Below, piece by piece: positions 9,634 through 20,230 of a stretch of 21,031 nucleotides of DNA (the stretch's first letter is position 1; each line of letters begins with the position of its first letter). This DNA comes from a virus: positions 1-21,031 of the IMG/VR virus record IMGVR_UViG_3300044825_003108; one strand, 5' to 3'. The position numbers were made by a program, and so were the translations under genes. The notes under the pieces were generated by a model. It ran no database searches, was not told where the DNA came from, and was given only the letters and a program-made list of their open reading frames with translations.

Positions 9634-9641
9634 CAAAGATA
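9634..9641 (-). promoter_or_regulatory. Promoter -7 element for the portal-capsid operon
   Basis: TATCTTTG fits TAnnTTTG, 17 bases before the portal ATG. It follows directly after the tRNA terminator, so a new start of transcription is expected here. The upstream element is weak: ATTG lies 22 bases further up. The 5' leader would be about 10 bases. Confidence 0.6.
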
Positions 9642-9728: not shown

Positions 9729-9756
9729 CTGTGAAAAAATCATTCACCTCATTTTG

Positions 9757-9828
9757 TCATGGGGGCGGGAATCGAACCCGCGATCTCTGGGTTATGAGCC
9801 CAGCGAATTACCGCTTTTCTACCCCACA
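9757..9828 (-). tRNA. tRNA-Met(CAT), initiator-like
   Basis: A 72-nt cloverleaf folds by eye. The acceptor TGTGGGG pairs with CCCCATG, the D arm begins GAA and ends TTC, the anticodon stem is CTGGG/CCCAG with loop CTCATAA, the T stem is GCGGG/CCCGC with loop TTCGATT, and the discriminator is A. Three features point to an initiator: three G:C pairs at the base of the anticodon stem (29-31 with 39-41), A11:U24 in the D stem, and no Watson-Crick pair at 1:72 (U.G). CCA is not encoded. It has its own promoter and terminator. An Ile-type tRNA with modified CAT is less likely given these hallmarks. Confidence 0.88.
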
Positions 9829-9930
9829 ATTTAAGCCCGCCACATCCGCTAACACACGCCGAGTGCACAAAGCCGTTTTAGCGTAAAAACGATCAGGCGC
9901 TTGCGGTCTGCATGGCAGGCTTTTCAGTTT

Positions 9931-9962
9931 CAAATATAAAGGGTATTTGTTTTATTTCCAAA
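9931..9962 (-). promoter_or_regulatory. Bacteroidota-type promoter for the tRNA unit
   Basis: On the minus strand TTTG at 9962-9959 is followed, after exactly 20 bases, by TATATTTG at 9938-9931. This matches the Bacteroidota -33 TTTG and -7 TAnnTTTG elements. Initiation would fall near 9925, giving a leader of roughly 100 bases before the tRNA. Confidence 0.7.
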
Positions 9963-10768: not shown

Positions 10769-11287
10769 TCAAGCACCTATAAAGATAGCGCCGTACTTGG
10801 AAAACTCATTCGCAAATGCTTGTACACGATCCCCTATATAGCATATCATTTGCCCTTGTAGCGGGCTTTGGGCTGGGCCAGAACTGGAATCGTAGAACTT
10901 GATACGGCCTTTTGGAAAACATACGGCAGTACTGGCTTCTAATAATTTCTGACCCCATGCGGTCTCTGTGCCATTGTTGACTAAGACTATCGCCTGTTTT
11001 ATGTTTGATTTTTCATCTATCAGCTTTTGAATAAAACGCTTTATCAATGGCTGACCGTAAGGCGGGTTCAAATAAACATTTGCGTGCCATTTATGTAATA
11101 ACCCGTCATCTTGTTTTGTGAATATTTTTTCGGCCCTAATCCAGAAGTTTGCCGTTTCGCACGACGCTGGATCAAGGTCTATGCTACCCATGACTGAGCG
11201 TGCGCTCTCTATGTAGCACGGAGGCGTGTACCATTCCTCGTTTCCGGAATTATTTGATACATGTGGTTTTTTGATTTCTGTTTGCAT
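10769..11287 (-). CDS. Phage N6-adenine DNA methyltransferase (Dam family), 172 aa
   Basis: This is a SAM-dependent adenine methylase of the phage Dam family (the Pfam 'Dam' type). The ATG at 11287 begins just before the conserved region. EEWYTPP at 17-23, IDLDPAS at 36-42, ANFWIRAEKIFT, DDGL and the catalytic LNPPYG at 73-78 follow the family order, then QAIVLVNNGTETAW and the family end motif GRIKFYD. It is of normal size. GATC is a common target for relatives but is not shown here. It lies 48 bases after thyX and ends at an AT-rich control-like region. As the third methyltransferase in the window it strengthens the case for heavy DNA modification. Confidence 0.9.
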   Translation of the reverse strand: MQTEIKKPHVSNNSGNEEWYTPPCYIESARSVMGSIDLDPASCETANFWIRAEKIFTKQDDGLLHKWHANVYLNPPYGQPLIKRFIQKLIDEKSNIKQAIVLVNNGTETAWGQKLLEASTAVCFPKGRIKFYDSSSGPAQSPLQGQMICYIGDRVQAFANEFSKYGAIFIGA

Positions 11288-11334
11288 GTTTTTATTTGTG
11301 CACCAATTCGTTGGCCTCAACGATATGGTTTTCC

Positions 11335-12641: not shown

Positions 12642-14720
12642 CTATAAAAGGTCTCCGATTTCCAAAATGCGGATAGGTTTGTCCGCTTGTTTTCTTAACA
12701 AAATCTTTGAATCCGCCAACAGCGTATAGCCAGAAGCCATCGCCGCGTCGAACTCTTGTGTATCGTCAATGTCAAAGTTAGCCCAATCTTTCAACAATTC
12801 CAAGAAATATACCTTGTGGATATTATCATAAATATACTTTTCTATCATCTCGCACATCGCCTGTGTGGTGCGCTTTGAGGCGGCGATCCCGTAGTTTTTG
12901 TTGCCTTTGACCTTCATCAAAAAGTTCTGCACGCGCTCGTTTTCAAAGTAGCCGACCATGCCGATCTTGTTGTTTTCTATCAAGCCCTGACAGCCGTATA
13001 GGAAAAGCGTAATGAACACATCCTCATAAAACTGCTCCACTTCGCTTGTGCGGTAGATATATTGAAGGACAAACATATCCGATATGTCCGGCTGCAAGGG
13101 GTCGTGTTTTCGCTTTACATAAAACGCCGCATCGGATTTTTGCCTGCCTTCCACGCGGGAGTGTGAAAAGGGGTCTATGCCACAGACGTACATATCCGTG
13201 CCCATTGGCCGGTAATCCACCTTATACGACGTGTTGTCGGCCTCTGACAAGGGGTTGACAGGGTGCGGGTAGTCCTTGACACGAAGCCAGCGGCCTTTTT
13301 GCGTCGGCACCCATTTAACCTCGCTGCCATACGTTTTCCAGACATAGTTGCCGCGCTCGACAAGTTGCTCCTGTCGCCACGCGACAAGGTCAATTTGGTC
13401 GGATATTTTGATGGTGTCAAACACGCTTTCGCGTGACAAGAAGCGGAACGCCTCTTCGACAGTCAAAGGTTCTTTCCTGACAAGCGAGTTGTACGACATG
13501 GCGTCATCGGCATACGCCTTTCGCTCCGCTATTATCTCATCGCGGTTTGCCGACTTATCACATTTGCCATACTTGTCACGGTTTCGCGCCTCATCCGCTG
13601 GGAGGAAAAACCGGAACAAACCGGTCTTTGTGCGCCGTGTCCCGTCATCCAGCTTTAGCTGATCGGAGTCCGTATACATCTTGACATACATATCCGTTGA
13701 GCCTTCGATTTCCTCAACGGTAGAGGTCAACATCGCTTTGCCTTTAATCTTGCCGTCAATGATCAAACAGAACTTGACGATGTTCCAGCGCTCGTACACA
13801 TCCACGCCGACTTGGGTCTTAAAGACCTCATCGCCTATGTAGCGCAAAAGTTTTGTACCGTCAAAGGCTGTTTCCGAGGATGAACGGTGTTCTATCCAGC
13901 CGCCAAGGTAGTCGTTGCGGCGAAAGGCTTCCGTATCTACCTGCTTAGGTTTAAAGATCAGTGTGTTGTTGATATTGTTCAAACGCCGCTCATCGTGGTT
14001 TGGCTTAAAAAAGTCCGGTAGCCGGGCAAAGGTGCGGATAATGCCGTCTTTAAAGACCACTTTGGCGGCATCTTCCGCCGTCTTTGACTGTATCCCTAAA
14101 TTGGAAAATCCTGCCCGCATTACAGGTTCAAGGCCAAACGCCACGCTCTTTGCCGTTTTCCCGTCGCGGCGCTTGGTCAGCTTCAACACACCAAAGCAGT
14201 TGGGGTTTCTAAGGCAGTGCTCGGTAAAGAGGAAAAACTGCCGATCGGATTCCCGAAAAGTCGGATAGCCCCTATTGCCGTGCGCTGCGATAAAGCACCA
14301 TTCCAGATAAAAGTAATGCAGGCCGGTAATATAGGTAGGCTCTCCCGTAGCGCCGTTGGCAAACCAGCAACCGGACAGGCGGCGCACCCAAGCGCCTTGA
14401 CGGAACGCCTCTATATAAGGGTCAGAATACCCCGGGTCTTCAACCTGCTTTGCTTTTTCCTCTGCAATTTTTTGCTCATAATCCGAAGGAAGACCCGTGC
14501 GCACCCAGTAAAAGTCATCCGGTTCCGGGTTCTTTTTTTCAACGCCCAAAAAAACAAGCCCATCTCCAAAGGGGTCGCGCACGTACCCCACAGGGGGGAT
14601 AGCGGATTGCACCCCTTGCACGATTTCAGAAGACCAGCCGTCCGGGACGGGACAAGATACATAAGCGTCTTTGCCTTCCCCGACAAGCGACCAAGGTTTG
14701 TTGTCAGGCACGTTTGTCAT
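12642..14720 (-). CDS. terL: Terminase large subunit, 692 aa
   Basis: This is the ATP-driven motor and nuclease that packages DNA into the prohead. The start is the ATG at 14720, overlapping the upstream stop; an upstream extension to 14789 would only duplicate coding of that gene. The ATPase shows a Walker A-like TKRRDGKTAKS at about 182-192 and a Walker B-like YIGDE at 294-298. The RNase H-like nuclease begins at CGIDPFSHS (Asp516), continues with GLIENN (Glu582), and ends with DDTQEFDAAMASG (Asp653 or Asp658), which supplies the expected acidic triad. The length is large for terminases but similar to those of crAss-like and other gut Bacteroidota phages, which is a family-level impression. 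The portal is unusually about 3 kb downstream, with accessory genes in between. Confidence 0.9.
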   Translation of the reverse strand: MTNVPDNKPWSLVGEGKDAYVSCPVPDGWSSEIVQGVQSAIPPVGYVRDPFGDGLVFLGVEKKNPEPDDFYWVRTGLPSDYEQKIAEEKAKQVEDPGYSDPYIEAFRQGAWVRRLSGCWFANGATGEPTYITGLHYFYLEWCFIAAHGNRGYPTFRESDRQFFLFTEHCLRNPNCFGVLKLTKRRDGKTAKSVAFGLEPVMRAGFSNLGIQSKTAEDAAKVVFKDGIIRTFARLPDFFKPNHDERRLNNINNTLIFKPKQVDTEAFRRNDYLGGWIEHRSSSETAFDGTKLLRYIGDEVFKTQVGVDVYERWNIVKFCLIIDGKIKGKAMLTSTVEEIEGSTDMYVKMYTDSDQLKLDDGTRRTKTGLFRFFLPADEARNRDKYGKCDKSANRDEIIAERKAYADDAMSYNSLVRKEPLTVEEAFRFLSRESVFDTIKISDQIDLVAWRQEQLVERGNYVWKTYGSEVKWVPTQKGRWLRVKDYPHPVNPLSEADNTSYKVDYRPMGTDMYVCGIDPFSHSRVEGRQKSDAAFYVKRKHDPLQPDISDMFVLQYIYRTSEVEQFYEDVFITLFLYGCQGLIENNKIGMVGYFENERVQNFLMKVKGNKNYGIAASKRTTQAMCEMIEKYIYDNIHKVYFLELLKDWANFDIDDTQEFDAAMASGYTLLADSKILLRKQADKPIRILEIGDLL

Positions 14721-18393: not shown

Positions 18394-18439
18394 GTAAAGA
18401 TATAAGGCTAAAAAAGTTTTTGCTGGGCGGTGTGAGCCT
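18394..18439 (-). repeat. 46-bp repeat, copy 1 (end of 391-aa methyltransferase)
   Basis: It aligns with 19605-19650 with 42 of 46 bases identical by hand, including 28 consecutive bases. It encodes the methyltransferase C-terminus (AHTAQQKLF) plus the stop and the promoter-like TATCTTTA before the GroES-like gene. Confidence 0.85.
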
Positions 18440-19583
18440 TTATTCGTTGAACGGCTATATCCCAGTATTCTTTTGTCATTTCGCTGCCTATCCAGTTAAA
18501 CCCTTCCTCGTGCGCTGCAATTAAGGTAGTACCGCTGCCTGTGAACGGATCGTACACTACCCCACTGGGAGGCGTTACCAACCTGCATAAGTACCGCATT
18601 AAGTCAATAGGCTTTACCGTCGGGTGCGTGTTGCCCTGCCCGCGTTCGCCTTTGTCGGCTTTGGCTTGGTAGAAGAAGCGGGCAGCGGAGCCGGAATCGC
18701 CGTATTCGATATTATGTTCACCATCGCCGCCTAAGCCAAACAAACCTTTGGCTTTTTTTCTTATCGAACCTGTCCCGCTCGCTGTCTCTGGAAACATCCC
18801 CACCACTTCCTCGCTTCCGTCGTGGATTAGGTTGGCGGGGAAGCGGCCAAGATTGGTCAACTCCCCCGACGATGTAGCGCCAGTTGATGCACCCGACATA
18901 CTTTTGGGGGCTACAACGGTTTTTGTCCTAACCATGACAGGGCGCTGCTCTGCTCCTATCCTACACCCATCTATATTTATCCCGCCTGTGCCCCATGTCA
19001 ACACGTTTTCCGCTACTGTGCCCTGTAAGGGTTTTCGGGCAACTGTGATAGTTTCAACAGCGGGCTTCAATGCTGTGCCCCAGCCGTCCCATTGTTGGGC
19101 TTCCGGGGTTGCGGGGGCGGTAAGCATTGCTTGTTGATGAGGGTTGTCGTTGTTTAACAGCCTTTGCATCCCAGTGTTTCCTTTTTGATGATTAGGACGA
19201 GATGATGGACTAATCCCCACCACCTCCCTTTCCGCTCCAGCGGCTTTGTCTATGGCTTTAGAGATATTATGGCTCTTGCTAAACCCTTGCCCATATACCC
19301 ACATAATCATATCCCTGATTTCAAACCCTGCATCTTCAATACGCACGGCCATGCGGTGTTGTGTACGGGTTCCTGCGAAGGCCAACAAGTGCCCACCGGG
19401 TTTCAGTACCCGTAAACACTCCTGCCATATTTCGATACTGGGCACATCGTAGTCCCATTTTTTCCCCATGAAAGCAAGGCCATACGGCGGGTCGGTAACG
19501 ATAGCGTCTATGCTGTTGTCCTGCATACGCTTCATAGTTTCAAGGTTTGGCTCGTGGTATACGTTGTTGATTAGGTTTTCCAT
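18408..19583 (-). CDS. DNA methyltransferase, beta class, 391 aa
   Basis: This is a second SAM-dependent DNA amino-methyltransferase. The catalytic DPPYGLAF begins at residue 31 and the SAM-binding DPFTGSGTT at residue 345, again in beta-class order. THPTVKP precedes the SAM motif, as is usual for the N4/N6 methylase family. The roughly 200-residue middle part, which contains WGTGGINIDGCRI and RFPANLIHDGSEEV, resembles the insert of larger phage site-specific methylases and probably reads the target. No restriction endonuclease is adjacent, so this is a solitary methylase, consistent with anti-restriction or epigenetic marking. A TATCTTTG promoter element lies 22 bases before the ATG. The C-terminal AHTAQQKLF and the DNA after it are a near copy of the upstream methyltransferase's end. 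Confidence 0.92.
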   Translation of the reverse strand: MENLINNVYHEPNLETMKRMQDNSIDAIVTDPPYGLAFMGKKWDYDVPSIEIWQECLRVLKPGGHLLAFAGTRTQHRMAVRIEDAGFEIRDMIMWVYGQGFSKSHNISKAIDKAAGAEREVVGISPSSRPNHQKGNTGMQRLLNNDNPHQQAMLTAPATPEAQQWDGWGTALKPAVETITVARKPLQGTVAENVLTWGTGGINIDGCRIGAEQRPVMVRTKTVVAPKSMSGASTGATSSGELTNLGRFPANLIHDGSEEVVGMFPETASGTGSIRKKAKGLFGLGGDGEHNIEYGDSGSAARFFYQAKADKGERGQGNTHPTVKPIDLMRYLCRLVTPPSGVVYDPFTGSGTTLIAAHEEGFNWIGSEMTKEYWDIAVQRIKAHTAQQKLF

Positions 19584-19604
19584 ACAGTGTATGTTTATAG
19601 AGGT

Positions 19605-19650
19605 GCAAAGATATAACGCTAAAAAAGTTTTTGCTGGGCGGTGTGGGCTT
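19605..19650 (-). repeat. 46-bp repeat, copy 2 (end of 203-aa methyltransferase)
   Basis: This is the second copy of the repeat at 18394-18439. It spans the last codons and stop of the 203-aa methyltransferase and the TATCTTTG element. The identical gene ends point to a duplication or exchange joining methyltransferase cassettes. Confidence 0.85.
19606..19613 (-). promoter_or_regulatory. Promoter -7 element before the 391-aa methyltransferase
   Basis: TATCTTTG fits TAnnTTTG, 22 bases upstream of the ATG at 19583. It overlaps the region just past the stop of the upstream methyltransferase. No -33 TTTG at a proper distance is visible. It belongs to a 46-bp repeat also found before the GroES-like gene, where the same element is degraded to TATCTTTA. 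Confidence 0.5.
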
Positions 19651-20230
19651 CTACCCTTTTCATAGCAGCGGCGAAATACTCCGGGTCAAGTTCGCAGCCT
19701 GTCAAGTCATAGCCGTAGTCGTGGCAGGCAATGGCGATGGATGCGCTGCCAAGATGCGTGTCTAAGATTTTATCGCCGGGTTTAGCGTAGTTGTGTAAGA
19801 GCCATTTGTATAGGGCGACGGGCTTTTGGGTGGGGTGGATGCGTTTGCCATCAACTGTATAAAAACCTCTTTCGCCTGCTGGTTTAGTAAAAAACATTTT
19901 AGCGGGCTTATCTATTGTACAAGTTGCTATTTCTACCATTGCAAAAGTTAGTTTTTCGGGTTGATGCTTATCCCATACTATAAAACCCTTGCATGGCCAT
20001 AATTCTGCAAAATAATTTCCACCCCAAACTATCTGATGCTTACTGACTCTTTTTAATTCAATAAAATATCTTGTTGACGGTCTTTCGTTATCCCATTTTT
20101 TACCATCATTAAATACTCTCATTTTATCCATCCCTATCCCATACGGCGGGTCAACAATAGCTAACTGAAAATACCCATCAGGATACCGCGCCATCATCTG
20201 CATACAGTCTTCGTTCGTTAGTGTGAGCAT
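19619..20230 (-). CDS. DNA methyltransferase, beta class (N4-cytosine or N6-adenine), 203 aa
   Basis: This should transfer a methyl group from S-adenosylmethionine to an exocyclic amine of adenine or cytosine in phage DNA. The catalytic motif DPPYGIG is at residues 27-33. It is followed by HPTQKP near 132 and then the SAM-binding strand and loop DTHLGSASIAIA near 158-169; this order marks the beta class. At 203 residues it is short, with a small target-recognition segment. The sequence motif it methylates cannot be read from the protein. The coding DNA for residues 1 to about 122 is clearly AT-rich, whereas the rest has the GC content of its neighbours, which suggests a recombinant gene. The last 9 residues, AHTAQQKLF, are identical to the end of the next methyltransferase. 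Protection against host restriction is the likely role. Confidence 0.9.
   Translation of the reverse strand: MLTLTNEDCMQMMARYPDGYFQLAIVDPPYGIGMDKMRVFNDGKKWDNERPSTRYFIELKRVSKHQIVWGGNYFAELWPCKGFIVWDKHQPEKLTFAMVEIATCTIDKPAKMFFTKPAGERGFYTVDGKRIHPTQKPVALYKWLLHNYAKPGDKILDTHLGSASIAIACHDYGYDLTGCELDPEYFAAAMKRVEAHTAQQKLF

Follow-up and report, generated by a model that had tools for sequence, protein, structure and literature searches.

A single initiator-type tRNA gene in a phage genome raises the question whether it yields a working initiator tRNA during infection, and how its unusual acceptor end bears on such a function. The gene considered here lies in the window, by which we mean the whole 21,031-base virus record IMGVR_UViG_3300044825_003108 of IMG/VR. 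The window encodes a portal protein (phrog_6547), a terminase large subunit (phrog_6681) and a capsid-type protein, as well as ThyX, a nucleotide kinase, a GroES-like protein and DNA methyltransferases. Its tRNA gene is situated between the terminase and portal genes, which are common to the relatives of this phage (L002/L152, L003/L151, L153 and L155; terminase 72-75% and portal 86% identical to those of the window). Most matches to the window terminase are Flavobacterium and Cellulophaga phages (28% identity to the terminases of Flavobacterium 'elemo' phages), suggesting that the host probably belongs to the Bacteroidota; the window itself is part of the genome of a probable Bacteroidota podovirus. 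A portal profile search of 395 Bacteroidota genomes, performed without a positive control, gave no match. At most phage genes here no obvious Shine-Dalgarno sequence is found.

The tRNA Gene and Its Class

The sole tRNA that ARAGORN identified in the window has a CAU anticodon and lies on the minus strand (9756-9828); Rfam model RF00005 placed a CAU tRNA on the same strand at 9757-9828 with 62.8 bits (E 9.6e-12). The tRNA gene is real, and is described as follows:

9757..9828, minus strand: initiator-type tRNA-Met (CAU), 72 nt, CCA not encoded (ARAGORN and Rfam; log-odds +35.7 bits)

Its sequence reads UGUGGGG UAGAAAAGCGGUAAUUCG CUGGG CUCAUAA CCCAG AGAUC GCGGG UUCGAUU CCCGC CCCCAUG A. The acceptor stem comprises U1.G72, G2.U71 and U3:A70 followed by four G:C pairs, and the D stem consists of G10:C25, A11:U24, A12:U23 and an A13.A22 mismatch. 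In the anticodon arm, GGG 29-31 pairs with CCC 39-41 below the loop CUCAUAA, and at the 3' end A73 is followed by CAA. The cloverleaf (-24.1 kcal/mol) is not the predicted minimum-energy fold (-26.7 kcal/mol). A first-pass annotation, made from the letters of the DNA, had named the CAT anticodon, the three G:C pairs, A11:U24 and the absence of an encoded CCA, all of which are borne out; it was silent on the second wobble pair, G2.U71, and on the D-stem mismatch.

The gene was compared with 58 CAU tRNA genes from Bacteroidota genomes, comprising 21 initiators and 37 elongator-type or Ile2-type genes. These split cleanly into two groups, class labels having been assigned from GGG:CCC together with a purine at position 11, and the remaining features separating along with them. 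All 21 initiators have A11:U24, GGG:CCC at 29-31:39-41, G2:C71 and a mismatched 1:72, whereas the 37 others have C11:G24 without exception, never GGG:CCC, and a G1 whose partner is C or U. The window tRNA, with A11:U24 and GGG:CCC, has all features that separate the two groups on the initiator side, except the 1:72 mismatch and G2:C71. Position-wise log-odds, derived from this small training set of 58, gave +35.7 bits for initiator; leave-one-out values were +46.6 to +75.1 for the initiators and -107 to -17.7 for the elongator-type genes, and with so small a training set a value close to zero, for example +4.0 for a tRNA in L004, is not interpretable. An elongator tRNA-Met or a tRNA-Ile2 (CAU) is thereby ruled out (+35.7 bits against an elongator-type maximum of -17.7), and by its sequence the window tRNA clearly belongs to the initiator class, as had been proposed.

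Bacteroidota tRNA-fMet and the window tRNA further share A73, the loop CUCAUAA and, usually, the lack of an encoded CCA, which is missing from most Bacteroidota tRNA genes (PMC5143459). The loop and adjacent pairs are identical to those of the 21 Bacteroidota initiators sampled. The difference lies at the acceptor end, where 1:72 is mismatched and 2:71 is G:C in 21/21 and the phage tRNA has wobbles at both. Across the whole gene, the closest of the sampled host initiators is 81% identical.

The Acceptor End Is Atypical for an Initiator

The U.G at 1:72 had been listed among the hallmarks of an initiator; the pair is present, but it is not a normal initiator feature. In a published set of 4438 bacterial initiators, 98.6% are mismatched at 1:72 and the other 66 all have U1-A72, with no wobble pair at this position (PMC5143459), and none of the 21 Bacteroidota initiators sampled has U1.G72. 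As U1-A72 is the sole non-mismatch among the published initiators, U1.G72 is atypical rather than a hallmark.

From the IMG/VR contigs among the matches listed (L006-L125), we also assembled a set of 93 distinct initiator-type tRNAs. Within this set, again among the matches listed, U1.G72 occurs in three tRNAs, G2:C71 in 90 and G2.U71 in none; the 21 host initiators all have G2:C71. U3:A70 is found in 3/21 host initiators, as in the window tRNA. One relative with an 86% identical portal (L162) carries, elsewhere in its genome, an initiator-type tRNA with U1.G72, A11:U24 and GGG:CCC as in the window, but with G2:C71.

In E. coli, the unpaired 1:72 end is the main determinant of formylation, assisted by A73, G2-C71, C3-G70 and G4-C69 (PMC9976931), and a G72G73 mutant was charged and not formylated (PMC2268962). 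G2:C71, C3:G70, G4:C69 and A73 are minor determinants and do not define the class; the window tRNA keeps G4:C69 and A73 and deviates at G2.U71 and U3:A70. The combination of U1.G72 and G2.U71 would probably weaken formylation, not abolish it.

A Watson-Crick or wobble pair at 1:72 was found in 27 of the 93 viral initiators among the matches listed (17 U:A, 6 A:U, 3 U.G and 1 G.U), compared to 66/4438 (1.4%) of the bacterial ones (odds ratio 27, Fisher p 3e-25). This comparison ignores phylogeny, the hosts are unmatched and the search pattern covers only part of initiator diversity, and we therefore treat the apparent excess of paired ends in viral initiators as a lead. When the longest open frames of 20 of these contigs were searched, 12/20 matched PHROGs, and the frames include terminase, portals, capsid protease, tape measure protein and DNA polymerase, suggesting that many of the contigs are true phages. 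If phage initiators do tolerate a paired 1:72, they would offer natural variants for testing the role of formylation and of the end mismatch in initiation while a cell is infected; such variants would matter most in the Bacteroidota, where obvious Shine-Dalgarno sequences are scarce at the phage genes here.

Occurrence of Initiator tRNAs in Phages

A strict initiator pattern matched at least 120 IMG/VR stretches, and BLAST against isolate phages matched 383 and 512 records, many of them only in part or at other tRNAs. Isolate phages with initiator-type genes include Caulobacter phage CcrBL9 (annotated tRNA-fMet, stem UGG:CCA), Mycobacterium phage ValleyTerrace, Prevotella phage Lak-B8 and Bacteroides phage LoVEphage. 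The view that initiator tRNAs are less usual in phages is therefore not upheld, and one further example by itself changes little.

The genes of these four phages resemble the window tRNA in their CAU anticodon, A11:U24 and G:C-rich anticodon stem, but in CcrBL9, ValleyTerrace, Lak-B8 and LoVEphage position 1:72 is U.U, A.C, U.U and C.A, respectively, and all have G2:C71, in contrast to U1.G72 and G2.U71 in the window. The LoVEphage and ValleyTerrace genes lie within tRNA clusters, whereas the window gene is alone in its fragment. Solitary viral initiator genes also appear to be common (35 of the 76 loci of at least 8 kb, among the matches listed, have a single tRNA), to be read with caution as the loci are fragments. 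The exact D-arm and anticodon-arm pattern of the window tRNA matched no other viral contig.

A Probable Single-Gene Transcription Unit

Around the tRNA gene, the following features were identified:

9931..9962, minus strand: Bacteroidota-type promoter motif TTTG-N20-TATATTTG, the sole match in the window, with a putative promoter role suggested by its position
9829..9930, minus strand: structured leader RNA from the promoter motif to the tRNA, with a homologous stretch in L002 and L003
9704..9730, minus strand: intrinsic-terminator-like hairpin of 11 pairs followed by TTGCTTTATA, also present in the transcript fold
9634..9641, minus strand: TATCTTTG motif before the portal gene, probably a separate promoter

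The pattern TTTG-N17-23-TANNTTTG, searched over the whole window, has one match where 0.77 is expected by chance, a count that is not significant alone. The match ends 102 nt upstream of the tRNA on the right strand, for which the chance is roughly 0.003 (a rough estimate), and it is this position, not the number of matches, that makes the motif credible. Downstream, the terminator-like stem (9730-9704) has 8/11 G:C pairs. With the promoter motif and terminator-like hairpin flanking the single gene, the tRNA likely forms a one-gene transcription unit, in agreement with the first-pass annotation. At the place equivalent to the TATCTTTG motif before the portal gene, the relatives carry TATATTTG.

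The Leader and tRNA-Like Elements in Relatives

Local alignment of the 102-nt window leader with L002 scored 21.8, against 8.4 +/- 1.4 for shuffled sequences (0/1000 as good), and the leader folds more stably than shuffled sequences do (z -2.1 in the window and z -2.8 in L002). The leader consensus contains two pairs changed on both sides, in what are in effect two independent sequences. A leader model (R1) matches only the window, L002 and L003 records, from which it was itself built; searches with this model and with a leader pattern yielded no further members, and scanning the leader permissively against Rfam yielded chance-level matches and nothing more. Two candidate homologues, the L004 leader (58/1000 shuffles as good) and a second L002 hairpin (26/1000), were not accepted. 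Theta ribozymes lie 3' of phage tRNAs and are thus a poor fit to a 5' leader, and a literature search on ribozymes adjoining phage tRNAs returned nothing usable.

In L002 (12800-13005) and L003 (10120-10325), a tRNA-like element comes after the homologue of the window leader (9930-9829). This element retains a 7-pair acceptor stem, a D arm with A11:U24 and the T arm, with an enlarged, aberrant region replacing the anticodon arm, and scores 20.8 bits with a tRNA-Sec model, below threshold. The window tRNA itself has no orthologue at the equivalent place in the relatives.

Further tRNA-related structures were observed in this group of records. L002 contains at approximately 14200-14330 a long hairpin, GCCCGGGCAGGATTCG...CGAATCCTGTCCCGGGC (fold z -4.75), with a 3' arm that looks like the T arm and acceptor strand of a tRNA. 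Two related phages, L163 (G004:11257-11394) and L164 (258-355; G008), have tRNA-Leu-like genes whose middle regions are enlarged or aberrant. The minus strand of L004 (3843-3989) carries a non-initiator tRNA-Met (U11:A24, U73) and, ahead of it, a tRNA-like gene whose anticodon loop is short or odd (CTGGG TCGCT CCCAG); a TACCTTTG motif and then a structured leader come before the two.

Function of the tRNA

We consider it fairly probable that the gene encodes a working initiator tRNA that adds to the host tRNA-fMet pool during infection. Host RNA polymerase would transcribe leader, tRNA and trailer from the gene's own promoter and stop at the terminator, after which RNase P would cut off the structured leader and host enzymes would trim the trailer and add the CCA. 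The mature tRNA would be charged by MetRS via its CAU anticodon, and A11:U24, the G:C-rich anticodon stem and the weak end pair would steer it toward formylation, toward IF2 and into the P site of the ribosome, for use at start codons. This reading is based on the complete fold (62.8 bits), the initiator features (+35.7 bits) and the flanking promoter and terminator motifs, and on the initiator-type tRNA of L162, the many phages with initiator tRNAs and the similar absence of an encoded CCA from most Bacteroidota tRNA genes (PMC5143459). Counted against it are the departure of U1.G72 and G2.U71 from the formylation determinants (PMC9976931, PMC2268962), A13.A22, a cloverleaf that is not the minimum-energy fold and the lack of a same-place orthologue. 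The tRNA had also been suggested to bias initiation toward phage messages, and nothing in its sequence makes it selective for these.

Alternatively, the tRNA could replace an initiator tRNA destroyed or modified by host defence, through VapC-type anticodon-arm cleavage, acceptor-end toxins or tail-cutting nucleases; the altered acceptor end would then be what allows escape. Enzymes attacking initiator tRNA are known (Winther and Gerdes 2011, cited in PMC10264068), and the acceptor end is unlike that of every host initiator sampled. We nevertheless consider this unlikely, since the loop and three adjacent pairs are those of host initiators and would leave the tRNA open to a VapC-type cut at that site, and since the phages of one host, whose VapC cuts tRNA-fMet in the anticodon, are reported generally to avoid encoding this tRNA (PMC10264068). 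The proposal that phage tRNAs evade anticodon nucleases was inferred from changes in the anticodon loop relative to the host (van den Berg et al. 2023, PMC10264068). The window tRNA could likewise replace an attacked host tRNA, but it has no such changes, and the resistance to host tRNA cleavage put forward in the first-pass annotation is thus not supported by a loop and three G:C pairs identical to those of the 21 host initiators. We know of no such tRNA-fMet-attacking nuclease for the host of this phage.

That the gene is a decaying passenger, host-derived and drifting with little function, would account for the wobbles at 1:72 and 2:71 and the D-stem mismatch, and the gene is absent or replaced in close relatives. 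The core initiator elements, T arm and A73 are all intact, however, with an Rfam score of 62.8 bits, and the promoter and terminator motifs are kept, which makes decay an unlikely explanation. Although tRNA genes are frequent phage integration sites, it is highly improbable that the gene is an attachment site, copied from the end of a host tRNA-fMet gene and retained for integration, as it lies between terminase and portal genes common to relatives, is at best 81% identical over its whole length to a sampled host gene, has acceptor changes found in no host, and is accompanied by no recognised integrase among the proteins scanned.

Beyond the working initiator tRNA favored here, a more speculative and rather improbable proposal is that phage initiators have relaxed the 1:72-mismatch rule, with the window tRNA as an extreme case adapted either to evade acceptor-end surveillance or to function when scarcely formylated, and with the conserved leader as a functional RNA in its own right.

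Methyltransferase Genes in the Window

PADLOC, run on the window, reported methyltransferase models and nothing else. Two neighbouring DNA methyltransferase genes of the N6/N4 type (PF01555) are located at 18408-20230, and a third methyltransferase gene (Dam, PF05869) at 10769-11320.
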